From the IMG/VR virus record IMGVR_UViG_3300010354_000571, positions 1 to 25,735 of that record: 25,735 nucleotides of DNA, one strand, 5' to 3'. Below are positions 2,590 to 24,280 of this stretch, piece by piece. The notes under the pieces were generated by a model, which saw only the letters and a program-made list of their open reading frames with translations, was not told the DNA's origin and did no database searches. Within the stretch, counting starts at the first letter, position 1. Each line of letters begins with the position of its first letter. The stretch comes from a virus. Made by a program: the position numbers and the translations under genes.

Positions 2590-3759
2590 TTATGTTCTAC
2601 CGGCTAAATTTTGACGGCTGAACCCCATACGATCCACAAACTTTAGTCCATGACTCACAAAACCCTCTTGTGTTTGAGTACCGTCTTGCAGATAGCCCTT
2701 TACTGGACTCGATTCTGCTGCTTTATTTAATTGGTCTACAATTGACATTTTCAATGCATAAATAGCGGCCCATATTTCAAAGGCTCCCTTTAGCCCGTCT
2801 GGATTTTGTTCAAAATGAGTCATTATCTTACTACGCATTGAATCAGTCATAGGTCTAGATTGCACATATTCCATGAAGTCTGGCAATAGATTATTTAAAT
2901 CACCCTGTACAATCTTTTTGTTAATATATGTAGTAAACAATTGATTGAACGTATTACGTGCTTGTGGTGCAGAATCTAGCATCTGATCAACTGCAGGACC
3001 ATACTGTTTAATTACTGCATTGGCTTTTCTTACTAAGCCGTTGTTTATTTTCAAATTAGGTGTTATTGGCATCTTAGCAGGTACTATGGCAACGTTACTA
3101 TTATTTTTCAATTTTCCTATAGTCCCGTCTAGTGGCACTGCATCATCGGTTGACGCTGCATTAGCATCAATAAATTGATGCACAACAATGCCCGCTGTTT
3201 TTCCTGTAAGTTCTTTTCCTACCTCACTATTGGGATCTACAGTATAAGTTATTCCGTTTGGATTAGCTCTAAATCTGTATAGTTTGTCAGTACCTGGGCG
3301 CAATGGTTGACTGAACAACAAATCTCCCCAGTAATAACCTTTGCTACGGTCTGCTTTTTCTAGTCCAGGCCAAATGTTAGCAATTAATTGATGCAGGTCT
3401 GTTCTATTCACTCCCCTAGCTTGATCGTATTGAACAAACTGTTCGGGGCTATAAACTTGTCTCCCTGAACCGTCTTTCTTATTGAACATGTGTTTATCCA
3501 TGATGCTGAAACGGCCTTGATCATCACGACCGAATATTAATGCTGGATAGCCGTCCCACTTAATTGTCACTTTACTTGGATTCTGTACAGTATCTATTGA
3601 AGCTTGAACCGCTCTGCTGGCACCTTGACTTCCACCTAAAAATACTAAATCTTCAGGATGGTCTAGATGACCTTTATCTTCTTTTAATGATGGTTTCTGA
3701 AACGTTTCAATATCAGTTAAAACGTTTCTCAAATAAGATAAGGATTCATTTAACTTCAT
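2590..3759 (-). CDS. Ligase/nucleotidyltransferase-fold protein, 389 aa, with KWDG motif
   Basis: Residues 67-70 read KWDG inside VTIKWDGYPALIFGRDDQGR. This matches motif I (KxDG) of the covalent nucleotidyltransferase superfamily of DNA/RNA ligases and capping enzymes, where the Lys takes the AMP or GMP. Further possible matches are GDLLF at 145-149 (motif III-like) and GIVVHQ at 190-195 (motif IV-like). The N-terminal 30 residues look like a tag (MKLNESLSYL) followed by HLDHPEDLVF. A C-terminal helical part of about 150 residues follows. Related phage proteins carry a domain of unknown function with this KWDG signature. The ATG overlaps the TGA of the Gly/Ala-rich gene upstream, so the two are coupled. 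Whether it seals nucleic acid or modifies a protein is unknown. Confidence 0.65.
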   Translation of the reverse strand: MKLNESLSYLRNVLTDIETFQKPSLKEDKGHLDHPEDLVFLGGSQGASRAVQASIDTVQNPSKVTIKWDGYPALIFGRDDQGRFSIMDKHMFNKKDGSGRQVYSPEQFVQYDQARGVNRTDLHQLIANIWPGLEKADRSKGYYWGDLLFSQPLRPGTDKLYRFRANPNGITYTVDPNSEVGKELTGKTAGIVVHQFIDANAASTDDAVPLDGTIGKLKNNSNVAIVPAKMPITPNLKINNGLVRKANAVIKQYGPAVDQMLDSAPQARNTFNQLFTTYINKKIVQGDLNNLLPDFMEYVQSRPMTDSMRSKIMTHFEQNPDGLKGAFEIWAAIYALKMSIVDQLNKAAESSPVKGYLQDGTQTQEGFVSHGLKFVDRMGFSRQNLAGRT

Positions 3760-5438
3760 TTTGGAACTACCGGATTATTTGGTCTGACTGCAACTTCTGA
3801 ACCGGAGTTACCGCCAGGTAATCTAGGTCTTCTATTGTTACCTTGTGCTGCTGCTCTGGCTTGTCTTTCTCTTTCTATTCTATCTCTTGTTTGTTGCTGC
3901 TTTGCTTCTCTGTCACTAGCGGCGATGTGTGTTGTAGATCCTGGTCTAGTAAATGTACTACCACCGGTGGCACTTGTAGTACCAACTTCAGCATCTGGTG
4001 TTCTAGTAGCTACTGCACCACCTGTTCCAGTCTCTGCTGAACTTGCAGGAGGGGATGATGCAGCTGGTTCTGCGGCTGCTGAAGCAGGAGCAGAACTATC
4101 AGGTGTTTTCAATGTCCTTGCTTTGGGTTCTTCTGGTGCCAAATTTGGATTGTTTATTGCCATAACTCCACCCGAAGATAATTCTTTTACTAACTTACTA
4201 TACGCCGCAGCATCAATTTTCTTTAGTCTTGCTAACTGTGACTTAATAATACCAACAAGTTCAGCAGAGGTTGTATTTCCGCCGCTGGATGCCGACGTAG
4301 TTGCTGCGGCGCCACCTCCAGCACCTCCACCTGCTGCACCAGCACCTCCACCTGCTGCACCAGCACCTCCACCTGCTGCACCAGCACCTCCACCTGCTGC
4401 ACCAGCACCTCCACCTGCTGCACCAGCACCTCCACCACCATAATTACCTCCGCCGGCGGGCGCAGATCCTCCGCCGTAACCAGGGCCCTGTGAGGCTGCA
4501 AACGCAGCGTTTGCTAATTTTTCAAATGCTGCCTTTCCTTTATCCCTAGGATAACTATCATTTACAGCTTTAATTAAAGTTTTTGTATGTGTATCATTCA
4601 TGGGTATACCACGTAAATACCATGGTAACCATCTATTCAACCATTGTTCAATAGACTCTGCTTCGTTTAGAATGCCCTCAAATAAATTGTTTAACTTTAA
4701 GTATTTGGTTTCAGCAATAATATACTTGCCATTCTTTTTGTTCTCTTTAAGTAGTGTTAATCCTACATCTTTCCACGTTAGTCCAACTGCTTCTAGCAAC
4801 TGATTAATCCAATATACAGTCCAAGCTTCCATAACTCGCTGACCTGTTTGCAGGGCACGAACCATGTTTCCGCCGGCTTTATTTCGTTGTAATATTGCTT
4901 TAGCAGTAGCTAGTGCATTATCCCATTCAGGATAACCCTTTCTATCTGCCATGAAATTTATAAGTTCTTTAGTTAACGCAATTTTCTTATTTTTATCCGT
5001 CTCTTGATTTAATGCAGCAGAAACGTTACGTATATAATTGTTTATATTTTGATTAGTCTGAGTTTGAGCCTGATATCTACCAGCAGCTTTAGCTCCAGCA
5101 TCTTTAGGAACTCCTGATGTTCCTCCAGAAGGTGCAGCTGGTTCAGTTGCAGGAGGTTCTGCAGGTGATGCGGAGCTAGTGTCAGGTGCTGATTGAATAT
5201 TGGGATCAACTCTGCCGGAAGAAATTTCACTATTTAAGGATTTGTATGCAGCACTAAGGAAGTTATTGATAAACTTTTCTTTGTGTGTTTTGTCTGCTAT
5301 AGACATTTCACCTTCAGTATCACCAGTGATACGATTTCCCATTTGTTTTAGAAAGGCAGCGCCGTAGTCTCCAACCCAATTAGCCAATTTCTCATCTAAT
5401 TTTTTAGGGTTGACATGTTTAAATTCCTTAAGCCTCAT
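3756..5438 (-). CDS. Large Gly/Ala/Pro-rich repeat protein, 560 aa, probable virion-associated
   Basis: The protein starts MRLKEFKHVNPKKLDEKLANW and has a helical N-terminal domain to about residue 75. A Pro/Ala/Ser linker (about 80-120) and a second helical domain (about 125-310) follow. Next comes a Gly/Ala region around 320-375 in which a seven-residue unit (GAGAAGG) is repeated five times. A short helical segment and a long disordered Ser/Ala/Thr/Pro tail ending in basic residues complete it. There is no catalytic motif or membrane helix. The linkers suggest a flexible structural or scaffold-type protein. It lies between an 81-aa gene (overlap 11 nt) and the ligase-like gene (overlap 4 nt). 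LDE at residues 14-16 could be a prohead protease-type site; unproven. Confidence 0.7.
   Translation of the reverse strand: MRLKEFKHVNPKKLDEKLANWVGDYGAAFLKQMGNRITGDTEGEMSIADKTHKEKFINNFLSAAYKSLNSEISSGRVDPNIQSAPDTSSASPAEPPATEPAAPSGGTSGVPKDAGAKAAGRYQAQTQTNQNINNYIRNVSAALNQETDKNKKIALTKELINFMADRKGYPEWDNALATAKAILQRNKAGGNMVRALQTGQRVMEAWTVYWINQLLEAVGLTWKDVGLTLLKENKKNGKYIIAETKYLKLNNLFEGILNEAESIEQWLNRWLPWYLRGIPMNDTHTKTLIKAVNDSYPRDKGKAAFEKLANAAFAASQGPGYGGGSAPAGGGNYGGGGAGAAGGGAGAAGGGAGAAGGGAGAAGGGAGAAGGGAGGGAAATTSASSGGNTTSAELVGIIKSQLARLKKIDAAAYSKLVKELSSGGVMAINNPNLAPEEPKARTLKTPDSSAPASAAAEPAASSPPASSAETGTGGAVATRTPDAEVGTTSATGGSTFTRPGSTTHIAASDREAKQQQTRDRIERERQARAAAQGNNRRPRLPGGNSGSEVAVRPNNPVVPK
4321..4440. repeat. 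21-bp in-frame tandem repeat, five perfect copies plus a partial
   Basis: Perfect 21-bp units begin at 4321, 4342, 4363, 4384 and 4405, and a shortened copy fills 4426-4440. The unit begins gcacctccacc on the plus strand. Each unit adds seven residues (Gly/Ala) to the 560-aa protein. Because 21 is a multiple of three, copy-number change would keep the frame. Identity between copies indicates recent expansion. Confidence 0.95.
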
Positions 5439-14571: not shown

Positions 14572-16617
14572 TTAAAAAGTCTTAGACATAGAAAAACCCA
14601 ATGCTAAATCACTAACACCAGCTTGCCCTCTATAATTTTGTCTATTTTCTACAAAGAACATAGATTTAATATCATTGTGTATAAATTTATGATAAAGTCC
14701 TAGACGCACTTCTTTTACGGTTGCAGCCAAATTAACTTTAGAATTTTGTATAACATTAAAATCACTATCAAGTCCAACAGGAGCAATAACATTTGCCATT
14801 GCTTTATAAATAGTTACCGGTTCATAAAACATGAATCCTAACTTGTGTTTTCCGATTTCCTGTTCGGCTCCTGCTATCCATCCGTGACTAAATACGTTGC
14901 CAATAGATAAAATATTTTCGCTGTTTGATCTTGTAAATGTAATACCTGTATTATAAGACATATAAAACTTAGATGCGTTGATAGTTTTATTTATTTTCAA
15001 AGACCCGTAGTAGGTGTTGCTATTTTTATTGTTGCCTTCGCCTATGAAACTTCCTACACTATTACCTAACCAAGTATTCTTTTCGCTGAATGTTCCTGCT
15101 GACATACCAAAGTCAAAAGAATCAAATGTTTTGTTATATGTTAGTTCAAACATACCCAAGGTATCATCATTCATATTCTTATACACATTCATGTGTAAAT
15201 TCTTTGTACCCACAGTAAATGTATTGGTGTAATTGTTGAACAATGCGTAAGGATTTTGCGTATCATAAACCATTAAGGTTTGTGCCAAGTTAAATTGATT
15301 TGGGGTGTAACGTGCAGTCAATGCTTCACCGGGTGTGTAAAAATCTCTTTCAAAAGAATCTACAACCATCAACTTCGTTAGACCTCCTGTACTTGCGCTG
15401 CCTCCAGTGTATACCAATGGTTTTACTGTTGATAAATTTGGTCCTGCTAATCTACCAGTAGTAGGAATTCCTAGCTTACCTACAGGACGAGTGGCATTTT
15501 CTAAATCTAGTAGGCCTTGACCATGAACATAAAGATTATAGTTGGGTATGTTTTTGTTTGCGGTTACTAATAATAGTTTAACTACATTCGAACCCTTCAT
15601 TTGTGGCCACATTTGATGAATGATTGCAGCAGCGCCAGATATCACCGGTGCAGACATAGATGTTCCTGTCATTGTTGATAGTCCAGTAGGCTGTAATGCA
15701 GCATCATACTTTTGAGGTATTCCCGCAGTTTTGGGTACAGTACTTAGAATGCTTGTGCCTGGTGCCATTAAATAAAACTCCCAAGTCTTGTACTTGTCAG
15801 CACAATATTGAGTATTCATAACACCATTAACAGTATTTTGGCACAAGTGTGCGGCACTGTTACTGCTAGAATTTAGAGTGTTCGTTGAAGAATTGTAATT
15901 TCCAGCTATTATGATTCTTCCACCAAATAATAGATTACCCTTTGCATCAGTAACTGTAGCTAATCCTGCTAATCCTTGTGACCATTTTGTACCGTCGTTT
16001 CCTGCCGACATAACAATCACCGATTCTCCTGATAGTGCCTGTGACAAGTTATTAACGCTGAACAATGTGCTTATAGGCAAATTACCAGTGTTAGTAAATT
16101 TAGTTGTGTACACACCTGTACTCAGTGGCTTTGCTGATAGATAACTTTGTGAGAGACTCCAACCCAAACTTAAGTTCAAAACATCTACGCCTGTGGAATT
16201 AACCCATGAAATTGCATTAACAAGATTATTTGTAGTGACTGATCCATTGTCAGTTACTTTTCCGATAACTAATTTTGAATCAAATGCAACTCCATGCACT
16301 CCGATATTGTCTTTAGCAGCCGCAGCTATACCTGCTACGTGTGTTCCATGTCCTATCCTATCGATAGGAGTACCTGATCCTGAAAAATCTTTAATGAAAA
16401 GAATTTTATTAATAAATTGATTACTGCTCGTATCTATACCACTATCAACAATTCCTATAACGCTATCCTTTCCTGTATATCCTCTAGCATATGCAGAGCT
16501 AGCATTGATTGATTTTAATGCACCACTCAAGCTATATTCAGGTGTTTGAAACGATGCCTGCGAGTACGCATTCAAAGATAACGGTAATAAAATTAAAGAC
16601 AAAAATTTAAGTTTCAT
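14572..16617 (-). CDS. Secreted subtilisin-like serine protease (S8) with a barrel-like C-terminus
   Basis: A signal peptide is clear: MKLKFLSLILLPLSLNAYSQ (1-20), with cleavage likely after Ala-rich YSQA. The S8 triad is complete: D58 (VDSGID), H90 (GHGTHVAG) and S320 (GTSMSAP), with oxyanion N207 (SAGNDG). Following a linker, residues from about 410 to 681 form a beta-rich domain that ends ALGFSMSKTF, an alternating strand with C-terminal Phe, the classic outer-membrane insertion signature. This is the architecture of subtilase autotransporters of Gram-negative bacteria. It is rare for a phage; most phage proteases are for head assembly and lack a signal peptide. It would be exported by the host Sec system and displayed or released at the outer membrane. 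The C-terminal barrel is inferred from pattern, not structure. Confidence 0.85.
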   Translation of the reverse strand: MKLKFLSLILLPLSLNAYSQASFQTPEYSLSGALKSINASSAYARGYTGKDSVIGIVDSGIDTSSNQFINKILFIKDFSGSGTPIDRIGHGTHVAGIAAAAKDNIGVHGVAFDSKLVIGKVTDNGSVTTNNLVNAISWVNSTGVDVLNLSLGWSLSQSYLSAKPLSTGVYTTKFTNTGNLPISTLFSVNNLSQALSGESVIVMSAGNDGTKWSQGLAGLATVTDAKGNLLFGGRIIIAGNYNSSTNTLNSSSNSAAHLCQNTVNGVMNTQYCADKYKTWEFYLMAPGTSILSTVPKTAGIPQKYDAALQPTGLSTMTGTSMSAPVISGAAAIIHQMWPQMKGSNVVKLLLVTANKNIPNYNLYVHGQGLLDLENATRPVGKLGIPTTGRLAGPNLSTVKPLVYTGGSASTGGLTKLMVVDSFERDFYTPGEALTARYTPNQFNLAQTLMVYDTQNPYALFNNYTNTFTVGTKNLHMNVYKNMNDDTLGMFELTYNKTFDSFDFGMSAGTFSEKNTWLGNSVGSFIGEGNNKNSNTYYGSLKINKTINASKFYMSYNTGITFTRSNSENILSIGNVFSHGWIAGAEQEIGKHKLGFMFYEPVTIYKAMANVIAPVGLDSDFNVIQNSKVNLAATVKEVRLGLYHKFIHNDIKSMFFVENRQNYRGQAGVSDLALGFSMSKTF

Positions 16618-20962: not shown

Positions 20963-21199
20963 TCATTGACACTTTACACCCTTACCAAACTCGTCCATTA
21001 CCTGCCGGGCTTGACCCATATCACCAATCACGAATTTGTATCCATCGATACAACGAACCTCGGTCATTCCGTTGATACCCCAACTGATACTGTTGCCTTC
21101 CTTATATCCGTTGACTGCACCGAACACCGTTAGGATTACGATGCCGATGATCACGATCACGACCATCATTTCGATCAGAGTGAAACCTTTTTGCTTCAT
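20963..21199 (-). CDS. Type IV prepilin-like protein, 78 aa
   Basis: The N-terminus MKQKGFTLIEMMVVIVIIGI is a textbook class III (type IV pilin/pseudopilin) leader: basic residues, Gly5 at the cleavage point, Phe6 as the new N-terminus and Glu10 (mature position 5), then about 20 hydrophobic residues. The host prepilin peptidase would be expected to cut and methylate it. The mature part (about 73 aa) is much shorter than pilins (about 130-160 aa). It has C50 and C77, which could form a disulfide near the C-terminus. It starts 4 nt after the AAA+ ATPase and is the last gene before the terminator, so it is translated from the same early message. Its role is unknown; jamming or altering host pilus or type II secretion assembly is one possibility. 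Confidence 0.85.
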   Translation of the reverse strand: MKQKGFTLIEMMVVIVIIGIVILTVFGAVNGYKEGNSISWGINGMTEVRCIDGYKFVIGDMGQARQVMDEFGKGVKCQ

Positions 21200-21203
21200 G
21201 ATA

Positions 21204-22226
21204 TTAAGCCTTCATGCAAGTAGCACGTGCCAGATTCTTCCAGTTAGTCGGGCTGATCTTGACCAGATCCGCAATCTTGAGAGTCATGCGGAGACTGATT
21301 TCACGGAGCTTGTTGTGATTGTCCCACATGAAGTCAAGCACCATATCTTCTTGCTCCTTAGTGAAGCCGTAGTCAACGAACAGACCAGGATCAGCATCAC
21401 GATGCACTTGCTTGATGCGGAGCATCTTGTCACGCTCGGTGTTGATAGTCAGATCCAAGAAGTGACTACGAGACTGGAGAGCATCCAAGTGAGGCTGAAT
21501 CTTAGTAGCCCGCTTGTTGTCGAAGGTCTTGTTAGTAATGAAGATGATAGAACCGTGAAAGTCAAACGTGTTCGGGACACCTTCTTCACGCAGGAGTCGA
21601 GAATCCTTGTTGTAAGAGATTCGACGGGTCTTGCCAGAGTCAAGCGCACCCTTGAGAATGTTCACAGCATCCTGATCTTCCCAAATGTCGCAGTCATCGA
21701 ACACCAGGACGTTCTTAGCATCGGAGTACTTGTACAGCAATGCGAACAGACCGATCGCCGACATAGTACCCTTGACAATCTCGAAACGGACCTTGCGACC
21801 AGCCAGCTTGTCGAACATGCTAGCCTTTTCCATTTGCGTAGTCACACCGTGCGACTTACCGACACCAGGAGGGCCAGTAACGATCATAGCACGGATATCA
21901 CCTGCGATACATGCCTTAGACATTTCATCGAGGATGCCGAAACGCTCGGCGATGCGATCCATAGCCTGCTCATCAGTCTCGGTAACAACCTCAGCGACGG
22001 GCTCGGACACTTGTGCGACCACCGGGGCACCGTTCAGAAATTCGATATCGGACATGCCATTGACCTTGATCTTGACGACAGGAATCGCAACGTCAAACTG
22101 ACCGTCGTTTTGAACGGTAACATAGTTACCTTTCTTGCCAGTTTGAAAGCCCTTGACGAGGGTAAACACCTCGTTCTTGACGGCTTGATTGCGATAAGAA
22201 CCAGAAAGAATGCGAATCGTTGACAT
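21204..22226 (-). CDS. AAA+ ATPase, 340 aa, early gene
   Basis: The start at 22226 (MSTIRILSGSYRNQAV) follows a GGAGC ribosome site. Walker A is GPPGVGKS (118-125), Walker B is VLVFDDCD (173-180), and FHGSIIFITNK (about 228-238) looks like sensor 1. The N-terminal 65 residues are beta-rich (KGNYVTVQNDGQ, PVVKIKVNG) and may be an oligonucleotide- or partner-binding domain. A Pro/Val/Glu linker joins the two. AAA+ ATPases of this size occur in many phages, mostly without a known target. The gene is under an early-type promoter (22259-22287) and is coupled to the prepilin-like gene. It is not a pilus motor: the Asp/His boxes of PilB/PilT are absent. Confidence 0.85.
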   Translation of the reverse strand: MSTIRILSGSYRNQAVKNEVFTLVKGFQTGKKGNYVTVQNDGQFDVAIPVVKIKVNGMSDIEFLNGAPVVAQVSEPVAEVVTETDEQAMDRIAERFGILDEMSKACIAGDIRAMIVTGPPGVGKSHGVTTQMEKASMFDKLAGRKVRFEIVKGTMSAIGLFALLYKYSDAKNVLVFDDCDIWEDQDAVNILKGALDSGKTRRISYNKDSRLLREEGVPNTFDFHGSIIFITNKTFDNKRATKIQPHLDALQSRSHFLDLTINTERDKMLRIKQVHRDADPGLFVDYGFTKEQEDMVLDFMWDNHNKLREISLRMTLKIADLVKISPTNWKNLARATCMKA

Positions 22227-22258: not shown

Positions 22259-22287
22259 ATTATATACCCAAATCCATTTATTGTCAA
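22259..22287 (-). promoter_or_regulatory. Early promoter P1, TTGACA-17-TATAAT
   Basis: Both hexamers match the sigma70 consensus exactly at 17-nt spacing. It drives the AAA+ ATPase and the prepilin-like gene. The spacer (starting ATAAATGG and containing TTTGGGTA) is shared with P6 and P7, differing by a base or two. The leader contains CATAGACAGTT, shared with P3. Confidence 0.93.
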
Positions 22288-22297
22288 CCTGCAGGCC

Positions 22298-22786
22298 TCA
22301 AGCAGCCTTCGAAAGATATTCCGAGACCTGCTCACCGGTGACCGAATCACCGTTACGCATCGTATAGACCACACGGTAGTTCTCACGACCGCCCGCCATC
22401 AGCATGTCATACTGCTCGGACTTGCTAGCAACCTCACGGCGCATGTAGCCGTACTCACCGTTGTCGACGGTGCGCCGGGCAACCCAGCGACCCTGTTCCC
22501 AGAACAGTTCGAAGGGGGTTTCCCACGGATCGCACACAGTGGCGTCATCATCGAGGATAGACCAGTCAACCACGTACTCCTCGAAACCCTCATTGCGGGA
22601 TTCGATCAGAGCCTTCAGGGTCGGGATGCCCTGATCCTTGACCTTGAGGACCTGAGCAACCGTCAGGTTCGGGACAACATACACATCACCACCCTTGCAC
22701 TTCCAGTACTGGGGGCAAGCACCCTTACCGTCCCAATCATGGGCACCGTAGTTTTCGCGGATTTGAGTGCTGATGACGATCTTCAT
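22298..22786 (-). CDS. Hypothetical protein, 162 aa, early gene
   Basis: The start at 22786 has GGAGCG upstream; a longer open frame to 22825 lacks a ribosome site. The protein is acidic and mixed alpha/beta (MKIVISTQIRENYGAHDWDG, PYWKCKGGDVYVVPNLTVAQVLK-like segments). It has paired aromatic residues and no motif I recognise. The GC content is visibly high (about 67% in the 60 bases from 22441), unlike the rest of the window. The gene lies between P2 and P1, and its TGA is 10 nt before the P1 -35. Similar small proteins are found in phage early regions. Confidence 0.78.
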   Translation of the reverse strand: MKIVISTQIRENYGAHDWDGKGACPQYWKCKGGDVYVVPNLTVAQVLKVKDQGIPTLKALIESRNEGFEEYVVDWSILDDDATVCDPWETPFELFWEQGRWVARRTVDNGEYGYMRREVASKSEQYDMLMAGGRENYRVVYTMRNGDSVTGEQVSEYLSKAA

Positions 22787-22815
22787 ATTTCGCTCCGTTT
22801 CTTGACTATGAATAC

Positions 22816-22844
22816 AGTATATCAAAAATTGGATTATTTGTCAA
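22816..22844 (-). promoter_or_regulatory. Early promoter P2, TTGACA-17-TATACT
   Basis: The -35 is perfect and the -10 is TATACT. The spacer differs from the others (AATAATCC...). The leader of about 23 nt holds ACGGAGCGAAAT just before the ATG at 22786, similar to the P1 leader. Confidence 0.85.
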
Positions 22845-22852
22845 ATTTTGGC

Positions 22853-23020
22853 TTAGATTTTTCCAAGCACATAAGAGCGGAGGCGACCATCAGGGCCAAG
22901 GAGTTCATAGTAACCCCAACGATGATTGGTCATCCAACGCACACATTCTTCGTTGGTGCCAGTAAAACGAACCCGCTTGATACCAACATCAATGAACTTC
23001 TTGACAACGACTTGATACAT
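22853..23020 (-). CDS. Small early protein, 55 aa
   Basis: This open frame has not been named before in any family I know. The sequence starts MYQVVVKKFIDVGIKRVR and continues with a Trp-rich middle (VRWMTNHRWGYYELL), a GPDGRLRSY turn and a short end. It reads as one beta-alpha-beta unit and is basic. It lies between P3 and P2 with a leader of about 25 nt from P3 and an AGAGA before the ATG. The stop is 8 nt before the P2 -35. Support is promoter position and gene-like composition. Confidence 0.72.
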   Translation of the reverse strand: MYQVVVKKFIDVGIKRVRFTGTNEECVRWMTNHRWGYYELLGPDGRLRSYVLGKI

Positions 23021-23052
23021 ACGATCTCTGTTATCTAACTGTCTATGAGACT

Positions 23053-23081
23053 ATTATATGCCCAAACCGATTTATTGTCAA
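23053..23081 (-). promoter_or_regulatory. Early promoter P3, TTGACA-17-TATAAT
   Basis: Both hexamers are perfect. The spacer (ATAAATCGG then TTTGGGCA) is nearly the same as in P1, P6 and P7. It lies 3 nt after the TAA of the 57-aa gene and drives the 55-aa gene. Confidence 0.93.
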
Positions 23082-23084
23082 GCC

Positions 23085-23258
23085 TTAGGAATTCACAGTA
23101 TTGAAAGGACTGTAGGAATCATCGTCCTCTTGCATGGTTTTCAAGGTATCATAAACCCAAGAAAGGGGAACACCGAGAATCTTGGCTACAAGAACCGGGT
23201 GCATACCCTCAGCCAAATAATCTTGGATTTCCAAAGAAATTTCACCCATCTTAGACAT
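23085..23258 (-). CDS. Small early protein, 57 aa, possible helix-turn-helix
   Basis: The protein begins MSKMGEISLEIQDYLAEGMH and then has VAKILGVPLSWVYDTLK (24-40), which has the spacing of a helix-turn-helix (hydrophobic-Ala, turn at G-V-P, second helix with a Trp-Val pair). The tail is acidic (MQEDDDSYSPF). It could be a small DNA-binding regulator, unproven. It has no promoter of its own with a -10 element; it is read from P5 together with the 70-aa gene. Its ATG is the ATG of a TTGACAATAAATG element, with AAAGG 10 nt upstream as a ribosome site. Confidence 0.72.
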   Translation of the reverse strand: MSKMGEISLEIQDYLAEGMHPVLVAKILGVPLSWVYDTLKTMQEDDDSYSPFNTVNS

Positions 23259-23268
23259 TTATTGTCAA
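23256..23268 (-). promoter_or_regulatory. Degenerate promoter element fused to a start codon
   Basis: The minus strand reads TTGACAATAAATG between the stop of the 70-aa gene and the 57-aa gene; its ATG is the start codon. The 13 bases match the -35 region and first spacer bases of P1, P6 and P7, but no -10 hexamer follows at 17 nt. It is probably a remnant of a promoter cassette. Confidence 0.7.
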
Positions 23269-23271
23269 CCT

Positions 23272-23484
23272 TTATTTTGAGAGAAAACGTGCCAGGTCGT
23301 CGTGCAGGAGATTCATTTCTTCCTGCTCAACATAGAAGTCAGTACGGGGGTCCCAGTACTGACCAGCCTTGGGATCGTAATACAGAATCCTGCCGTTGCT
23401 ATAAACGAACGGACCCTCGAGGCCCTTACGTGGACCATAGCCCTTCAGAACATCCTCAGTACGACCCAAAACTCGAAAGCCCAT
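23272..23484 (-). CDS. Small early protein, 70 aa
   Basis: The start at 23484 has AAGGAG in the right place. An in-frame extension to 23610 would cover P5 and the end of the previous gene, so it was rejected. The protein is charged and aromatic (GFRVLGRTEDVLKGYG, FVYSNGRILYYDPKAG, WDPRTDFYVEQEEMNLL). A short beta-hairpin is likely at the centre and a helix at the end. No function is recognised. It is read from P5 and is followed by the 57-aa gene 13 nt away. Confidence 0.75.
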   Translation of the reverse strand: MGFRVLGRTEDVLKGYGPRKGLEGPFVYSNGRILYYDPKAGQYWDPRTDFYVEQEEMNLLHDDLARFLSK

Positions 23485-23514
23485 AAAGAACTCCTTCTGA
23501 CTGAATAAGACTCT

Positions 23515-23543
23515 ATTATAGAGCCTTATGGATTTATTGTCAA
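23515..23543 (-). promoter_or_regulatory. Early promoter P5, TTGACA-17-TATAAT
   Basis: Perfect hexamers. The -35 overlaps the TGA stop of the 80-aa gene. The -10 is inside a palindrome, CTCTATAATAGAG (5-bp arms, 3-nt centre, 23511-23523), that could bind a repressor. It drives the 70- and 57-aa genes. Confidence 0.93.
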
Positions 23544-23782
23544 GCCAGATCCAACTGGACTTGCAGACCTTCCCAAGTACCAGCAAGACCCACGGCGCAC
23601 TGGTCAGCAAGACCCTTACCCGAGCGAGTGAATTCTAGGGCGTCAAGAGCCTTTTGGGTTGCAGCATTGCACTTGGTGAAATCACCGATACCGTTGCGAA
23701 TCTGTTTGGCAGTAGCATAAAAGCATGCCGATTCAACGATAACACGAAAACGTTGGGATTGCTTGAAACGTTTGATAGTCAT
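23540..23782 (-). CDS. Small early protein, 80 aa, basic
   Basis: The start at 23782 is preceded by AAGGAG; the upstream ATG at 23800 is not. The N-terminus is basic (MTIKRFKQSQRFRVIVES). The middle is Ala-rich and helical with three Cys. No function is recognised. The TGA stop is inside the P5 TTGACA. Confidence 0.75.
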   Translation of the reverse strand: MTIKRFKQSQRFRVIVESACFYATAKQIRNGIGDFTKCNAATQKALDALEFTRSGKGLADQCAVGLAGTWEGLQVQLDLA

Positions 23783-23811
23783 GTCAGACTCCTTAATCAA
23801 TCAATACACGT

Positions 23812-23840
23812 ATTGTATAGCCAAACCCATTTATTGTCAA
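23812..23840 (-). promoter_or_regulatory. Early promoter P6, TTGACA-17-TACAAT
   Basis: Perfect -35 and a -10 with one change. The spacer (ATAAATGGG, then TTTGGCTA) belongs to the P1/P3/P7 type. The -35 overlaps the TGA of the 63-aa gene. The -10 region carries CAATAC-AC-GTATTG on the plus strand (6-bp arms, 23802-23815), a possible operator. It drives the 80-aa gene. Confidence 0.9.
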
Positions 23841-24028
23841 ATTTTGGCAATTCGCCGAAACTTCAGACGCCAAAACATCTGCCACATTCGGCTTTGTTTG
23901 GTCCAATGCAGGCTCTTAGTACCCCTAAGAAACTTGCCGTCAACAAGCTTACCGAAGGGCTTGGGCTTGGGCTGCCCACGCAACAGCTTGTAGGAGACTC
24001 TTTCGTATGGCGTCATTTTGATGTTCAT
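23837..24028 (-). CDS. Small early protein, 63 aa, strongly basic
   Basis: The two candidate ATGs are at 24028 (MNIKMTPYERVSYK) and 24016 (MTPYERVSYK). The longer start is taken because P7 ends 6 nt before it, and neither ATG has a ribosome site. The product has many Lys and Arg (KPKPFGKLVDGKFLRGTKS, WRLKFRRIAKI) and three Trp residues, and may bind nucleic acid. The TGA is in the P6 TTGACA. No family is recognised. Confidence 0.7.
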   Translation of the reverse strand: MNIKMTPYERVSYKLLRGQPKPKPFGKLVDGKFLRGTKSLHWTKQSRMWQMFWRLKFRRIAKI

Positions 24029-24034
24029 GTCTGT

Positions 24035-24063
24035 ATGATATACCCAAACCCATTTATTGTCAA
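24035..24063 (-). promoter_or_regulatory. Early promoter P7, TTGACA-17-TATCAT
   Basis: Perfect -35 and a -10 with one change. The spacer is ATAAATGGG then TTTGGGTA. TATCAT, then ACAGAC, then ATG, so the start point falls at the start codon. The -35 overlaps the TGA of the 55-aa gene upstream. Confidence 0.9.
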
Positions 24064-24227
24064 GCCTGAAAATCACGCTCAAGCTTGTCCAAAATACGGG
24101 TGATCCTGCGCTTATGCTGCCGAACAGCGGTCTTGCGGTCCTTAGGAGCCGGGCCGCAGCAAGTGCAAAACCAGCCACCGGGACCCACACGGGCGTGATG
24201 ACGGGCATTGAACAAGTTGGTCTTCAT
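24060..24227 (-). CDS. Small early protein, 55 aa, with CTCC cysteine cluster
   Basis: The start at 24227 has AAGGAG upstream. The protein (MKTNLFNARHHARVGPGG, then WFCTCCGPAPKDRK) has three Cys in a row of four and two His before them, which may bind zinc. The rest is a long basic helix (TAVRQHKRRITRILDKLER). The TGA stop overlaps the P7 -35. No family is recognised. A zinc-binding nucleic-acid protein is one reading. Confidence 0.72.
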   Translation of the reverse strand: MKTNLFNARHHARVGPGGWFCTCCGPAPKDRKTAVRQHKRRITRILDKLERDFQA

Positions 24228-24251
24228 AACTGTGCTCCTTACTGTGTCCGC

Positions 24252-24280
24252 AGTATATAACACAGTGGATTTATTGTCAA
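24252..24280 (-). promoter_or_regulatory. Early promoter P8, TTGACA-17-TATACT
   Basis: Perfect -35, with ATAAATCC after it, and -10 TATACT. The -10 lies inside a 7-bp inverted repeat, ACTGTGT at 24241-24247 and ACACAGT at 24260-24266 on the plus strand, which may be an operator. The -35 overlaps the TGA of the 281-aa gene. Confidence 0.9.

Follow-up and report, generated by a model that had tools for sequence, protein, structure and literature searches.

A mini-prepilin of a T4-like phage carries a conserved outer domain and may act in the host periplasm

We analysed the entire IMG/VR virus record IMGVR_UViG_3300010354_000571, whose 25,735 bases are hereafter called the window, with a focus on a tiny gene for a type IV prepilin-like protein. 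All window coordinates given here are on the minus strand. The coding sequence (20963..21199) specifies 78 residues and was delimited as an open reading frame (ORF) with Pfam and NCBIfam matches and a family alignment of 45 rows. The protein opens with the leader MKQKG, after which come FTLIE and a hydrophobic helix, and it matches both Pfam N_methyl PF07963 (E 1.7e-10, 40.5 bits, cut-off 21.2) and NCBIfam TIGR02532 (35.9 bits, cut-off 16.3). This bears out the original prediction, which had recognized the leader and helix as a prepilin peptidase site and put the mature protein at about 73 residues; the predicted cut after G5, at the end of the leader (21185..21199), leaves a mature protein of that length. 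In the numbering used here, E10 of the precursor is E5 of the mature protein. The membrane helix spans residues 8–29 in the AlphaFold2 model (21113..21178), and residues 39–77 (20969..21085) make up a mini-domain, presumably periplasmic, that includes two invariant cysteines, C50 and C77.

The prepilin gene starts 4 nucleotides past the stop codon of an AAA+ ATPase gene (21204..22226; phrog_1250), and a GAAGG ribosome-binding site, read from the sequence, stands 9 nucleotides 5' of its ATG (21209..21213). Because a sigma-70 promoter, TTGACA-N17-TATAAT with 12 of 12 matches (22287-22259), lies 5' of the AAA+ gene and an intrinsic terminator with a 9-pair stem and a T tail (20940-20919; fold z -2.8) lies 3' of the prepilin gene, the two genes form one unit, with the ATPase gene first. 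On the same strand, 22259-24280 holds seven sigma-70 promoters that match at 11 or 12 of the 12 positions, and three of them have a longer conserved spacer in common. Seven such strong promoters fit an early region; the early promoter previously claimed is thus borne out as a promoter, its timing being read from promoter type only. The window phage is T4-like. A UvsW-type helicase is present and, judging from the ORFs, a DnaB-type helicase and a primase probably are too.

The mini-prepilin belongs to a family in which both ends of the protein are kept. Relatives were found at 38 IMG/VR loci by a scan with the window protein; when the query was instead an alignment restricted to the outer domains, 52 loci were found. 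A G-[FMVIY]-[TS]-L-I-E N-terminus is present at 50 of these 52 loci, the two exceptions being L165, which has a stop in the helix and lacks the G, and L174, which is cut by the contig end. Since this search was free of the leader, the outer domain predicts the leader. Likewise, 32 of 35 records have exactly one PF07963 match; none was found in the other three, namely G014 (L030, leader GMSLIE), G017 (L036, G lost) and Acidovorax phage ACP17. The G of the cleavage site is lost at L036:4992-5216 and near 3836-4120 of L165.

The family alignment comprises 45 rows, drawn from 46 unique proteins, with L006 (a near-duplicate of L005) and L171 (start unresolved) left out; one outer-domain alignment uses 38 of the 45 outer domains, near-duplicates being omitted. 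L171 itself (IMGVR_UViG_3300038674_000378, ORF 3590-4123) has a zinc motif, which we take to be SEC-C-like, in frame just 5' of the prepilin motif, pointing to a possible fusion or to the unresolved start. Across the 45 rows, G5 is invariant (44/44, one row being gapped), as are I9 and E10 (45/45 each), while T7 and L8 are kept in 44/45; F6 is found in 36/45, the other rows having mostly M or V. The search for prepilin-motif proteins in related phages that had been proposed thus yielded a family, and conservation of G5 and E10, and to a lesser degree F6, was what it returned. In the outer domain, C50, F56, Q66, G72, G74 and C77 are each found in 45/45.

Mean pairwise identity is 86% for the leader and first mature residues, 31% for the helix core (residues 11–30) and 67% for the outer domain. 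The ratio of nonsynonymous to synonymous substitution (dN/dS; 57 pairs with pS<0.6) follows the same course, at 0.09 for residues 1–10, 0.58 for 11–30 and 0.16 for 39–77. The leader and outer mini-domain are maintained by purifying selection; selection keeps both ends, and the helix need only remain hydrophobic. This pattern is opposite to expectation, the outer domain being far better kept than the membrane helix. Several of these counts rest on related contigs. A chance ORF or host contamination is ruled out by the 38 related loci, the conservation, the dN/dS of the segments and the fact that the window is a whole virus record.

The outer mini-domain also occurs on other anchors. With a profile made only of family rows that have the prepilin N-terminus, hhalign matched gp002 of ACP17 (E 4e-12) and ORF355 of Xanthomonas phage XacN1 (E 1.7e-9; hidden Markov model (HMM) E 3.7e-8). 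ORF29 of Delftia phage RG-2014 gave a weaker match (HMM E 0.0024; hhalign E 3.3e-5 with a wider profile), and weak matches of this kind need care, the mini-domain being short. From their sequences, gp002 and ORF29 appear to have plain transmembrane anchors and ORF355 a lipobox. Prepilin, lipobox and transmembrane anchors would all put the mini-domain in the periplasm. Judging from these swaps, other phages can do without the pilin part. Searches of viral contigs with the XacN1 protein returned nothing useful, and those with the ACP17 protein returned ACP17 itself only.

Folded alone, the mini-domain (43 residues) is predicted to form beta strands with a pLDDT of 88, and C50 and C77 probably close a disulfide. 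When this model was compared with viral models by Foldseek, the top two matches were ACP17 and RG-2014, with root-mean-square deviations (rmsd) of 0.9 and 0.8 A over 33 columns and E-values of 0.03 and 0.06, respectively. DUF6440 and poxvirus entries were also among the viral structure matches, at E about 0.2-0.7, and were not used. No pilin was among the listed PDB matches, all weak, of either the full or the mini-domain model. The best VIA Z values were uninformative, being 3.2 for the full model (rmsd 3.9, 50 residues aligned) and 3.9 for the mini-domain (rmsd 2.5, 43 aligned). A Pfam scan of the outer domains gave stray matches only, a sequence search of solved structures nothing of use, and a defence-system library weak matches only.

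In bacteria the outer domain is rare. It was absent from all 369 genomes searched in the Gammaproteobacteria, the class of Marinobacterium, and from all six genomes of a smaller bacterial set, and searches of plasmids gave no match; as a positive control, this profile was run on 27 phage records, of which it matched 25 at E <= 0.1. The order of Comamonas gave one match in 300 genomes. That locus (L184:1060-1617) carries the outer domain on a prepilin-like N-terminus, with S replacing mature E5 and an integrase-like ORF nearby, and is likely a prophage. These counts (0/6, 0/369, 1/300) and the lack of a plasmid match led us to reject a bacterial origin of the outer domain. A scan of genome contigs gave 80 loci, mostly through the common GFTLIE motif, and the 14 that were inspected are pilin-like and without the outer domain; a six-frame motif scan gave a single stray match among these 80, in L073. 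A tblastn search with the N-terminus alone returned nothing useful, probably because this segment was masked as low complexity. A recently acquired host pilin fragment without function, which the resemblance of the N-terminus to many bacterial pilins might suggest, is exceedingly improbable: purifying selection on the leader and outer domain across 45 divergent rows contradicts it, and the gammaproteobacterial genomes searched yielded no copy of the outer domain.

The reading that we rank first, tentatively and at slightly less than an even chance, is that the protein would be an early phage effector of the host envelope, docked among pilins and acting in the periplasm. In this proposal the protein would reside in the inner membrane, its mini-domain facing the periplasm, and, by a rough estimate, the host prepilin peptidase (PilD/GspO) very probably cuts after G5. 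Insertion, cleavage and the periplasmic mini-domain are predicted from the established biology of class III signal sequences, by which such proteins enter the membrane along the prepilin route, are cut by the peptidase and expose their outer part to the periplasm. The mini-domain is, again as a rough estimate, quite likely the working part, acting in the periplasm. The prepilin-anchored form might then dock in the host pilin or pseudopilin pool at the type IV pilus or type II secretion platform, a step that we roughly put at a little better than even. Cleavage alone usually does without E5. Mature E5 never changes, whereas the remainder of the helix diverges, so docking into host pilin machinery would be the most likely reason for its retention. 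The docked mini-domain would dampen or re-route envelope machinery during takeover, and superinfection exclusion is the likeliest benefit, although by our rough estimate a doubtful one.

Several observations weigh against this. First, ACP17, XacN1 and RG-2014 have the domain without a prepilin anchor and the likely prophage copy has S for mature E5; therefore, pilin machinery is not always needed. Second, L036 has lost G5 yet keeps the domain. Third, conservation is lowest in the helix core, where packing in a fixed filament would lead one to expect the contrary. Fourth, judged by their E-values, the matches that Foldseek found among viral models are weak, and the full model has no PDB match at E <= 0.001, so no target is suggested by the fold.

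The original prediction had proposed that the protein might enter the host's pilus or type II secretion machine as a decoy or cap, blocking pilus-dependent phages or changing motility. In this reading, the presence of a stub pilin in the type IV pilus or pseudopilus would by itself be enough to stop extension or retraction, the outer domain having no target of its own. Part of this has support: the invariant E10 is what engagement of a pilin machine predicts, and G5 is conserved with it. There are precedents too: the accessible parts of two reports describe phages that achieve superinfection exclusion by putting type IV pili out of action in different ways, with Tip, Aqs1 and Zip as examples (PMC11656802, PMC11436027), and pilus dynamics can be altered by the ratio of minor to major pilin alone, according to the accessible part of another (PMC13249403). 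The decoy idea, however, predicts neither a well-conserved outer domain, kept across phage contexts and on non-pilin anchors, nor the SPFH/Band_7 neighbours described below; moreover, the helix core is variable and no pilin or pseudopilin equivalog model was reached. We rank it third and consider it improbable.

The original prediction had coupled the protein to the AAA+ ATPase, and the two-gene unit agrees with this for the window; as a clue to function the coupling is weak. The AAA+ protein is an orthologue of T4 nrdC.10 (35% identity, E 2e-54), similar proteins occur in 1233 phage records, and we rejected it as a specific partner. Vibrio phage 6E35.1a, which has an AAA+ relative, has no prepilin annotated among 13 features around it. 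Over 60 family loci (the window, 58 IMG/VR loci and Synechococcus phage BUCT-ZZ01), the AAA+ cluster is found in 24 and an SPFH lipoprotein cluster in 24. The SPFH gene lies on the 5' side of the prepilin gene at 23 loci and on the 3' side only at L156, a locus that holds both clusters. Of 35 records, 22 contain PF01145 (Band_7); 15 of the 22 have it on the strand of the prepilin gene and no more than 3 kb away, where random placement would give about 0.9. We regard the linkage of SPFH and prepilin genes as a strong lead rather than a test, since related records are not independent. Among the records closest to the window, G001, G003, G009 and G011, for instance, all of them fragments, yielded no Band_7 gene; the window and its closest relatives carry AAA+ in its place, and in the window itself the gene directly upstream encodes AAA+, not SPFH/Band_7. 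Seven family loci, including BUCT-ZZ01, have a dual-specificity-phosphatase-like protein near the mini-prepilin (L016:3276-3812, L001:3545-4114).

The same arrangement recurs in another sequence family. In phage 44RR2.8t, ORF098c (SPFH) lies directly 5' of ORF097c, a prepilin of 72 residues, and this order is also found in Aeromonas phages 25, AS4 and AhFM11 and in Stenotrophomonas phage IME13. The annotated coding sequences of AS4 (L181:2189-2644) and AhFM11 (L182:2186-2644) extend about 80 residues N-terminal of KGFTLIEL or NGFTLIEL, and in IME13 the mini-prepilin is an unannotated ORF between the SPFH lipoprotein gene and the next annotated gene (L183:2354-2660).

These findings, namely the SPFH cluster gene in 24 of 60 loci, the excess of nearby Band_7 genes and the SPFH-prepilin order in T4-like phages of Aeromonas that belong to another sequence family, together with the same domain on lipoprotein and plain transmembrane anchors, favour the explanation that we rank second. 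Here the leader would be just an export signal and inner-membrane anchor, and the mini-domain would act on envelope proteins that have no connection with pili, possibly in a complex scaffolded by a phage SPFH/Band_7 protein. It leaves the invariant E10 (45/45) unexplained, and the records nearest the window, fragments as they are, yielded no Band_7 gene; we hold it to be rather unlikely. A broader proposal, to which we give somewhat more credence while keeping it tentative, is that large phages share an exchangeable periplasmic module, in which a mini-domain with two cysteines is carried on a prepilin leader, a lipobox or a transmembrane helix according to host, often beside a phage SPFH scaffold, and remodels the envelope early.

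The pair of SPFH and mini-prepilin genes lies near rI in 44RR2.8t and Aeromonas phage 25, and this, with the small size, the single membrane helix and the cysteines outside the helix, would suit a role in lysis timing, as a membrane-tethered, disulfide-bonded periplasmic partner of holin or antiholin in the style of T4 RI. The Aeromonas outer domain, however, is not detectably related to that of the window (hhalign probability 0.2%), and the window gene shares a strong sigma-70 promoter with a gene of the nrdC.10 type, so that we consider such a role very improbable. Elsewhere in the window, at 14572-16617, is a 681-residue S8 subtilase whose start resembles a signal peptide and whose C-terminal half, a long one, lies past the protease domain; we judge this unusual for a T4-like phage.

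If the effector reading favoured above is true, the family would be one of phage proteins that seem to exploit the host's prepilin peptidase, and perhaps its pool of pilins as well, and whose division into anchor and effector can be tested. The natural anchor swaps are a ready-made experiment on which part of the protein carries the function, and since SPFH and mini-prepilin genes repeatedly lie together in different groups of phages, the mini-prepilin is a candidate partner for phage SPFH proteins.

Phage prepilin motifs were already tabulated in 2006 without a function. In the accessible part of that report, Table 3 lists 44RRORF097c as 'Prokaryotic N-terminal methylation motif' beside the SPFH ORF098c, and has prepilin motif entries also for Aeh1ORF040c and, weakly, RB49ORF046c (PMC1524935). 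Our literature search, for which sources were available in part, found no function for any phage prepilin; nor did it find a description of the present family, its anchor swapping or its SPFH linkage, or of a role of phage SPFH proteins.

Compared with pilins and pseudopilins, the window protein has the same G at −1, E at +5 and hydrophobic N-terminal helix, but it scores below all equivalog cut-offs (GspH 33.6 against 80 bits, ComGC 31 against 75, GspG 27.2 against 88.85), and these matches end by residue 36. The prepilins of the 44RR type (ST44RRORF097c and relatives, 36 phage records) are likewise encoded by phages and have a prepilin N-terminus and a short outer part with two cysteines, and the six records of this type that were searched have one N_methyl gene per genome. 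They differ in the outer part, which is not detectably homologous by the hhalign comparison given above, and in lying behind SPFH in all five loci read, whereas the window gene lies behind AAA+. The proteins of ACP17, XacN1 and RG-2014 share the mini-domain, with its first cysteine and closing G.G..C, but have a transmembrane or lipobox anchor in place of the prepilin N-terminus. Two counterparts in isolated phages, UTS52068.1 of BUCT-ZZ01 (44% identical to the window protein over its length) and WEM34242.1 of Xanthomonas phage X1, have both the prepilin N-terminus and the same outer domain and are annotated as hypothetical only.

Other phage proteins with a prepilin motif have already been noted as pilin-like in their records, namely KVP40.0030 of Vibrio phage KVP40 (66 residues) and Aeh1p044 of Aeromonas phage Aeh1 (28 residues); the former, however, does not match the outer-domain profile and the latter stops right after the helix. 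PHROG 3433 is labelled pilin, and ORF231 of ValKK3 is weakly similar to PilE, according to the accessible part of its report (PMC13142089). Finally, Tip, Aqs1 and Zip of Pseudomonas phages are, like the window protein, small phage proteins, and they disable pili; the available part of the source describes no prepilin motif or periplasmic domain for them (PMC11656802). Proteins of the Tip/Aqs1 type are small cytoplasmic binders of PilB, and the window protein, with its predicted membrane helix and outer domain, would differ from them in anatomy.
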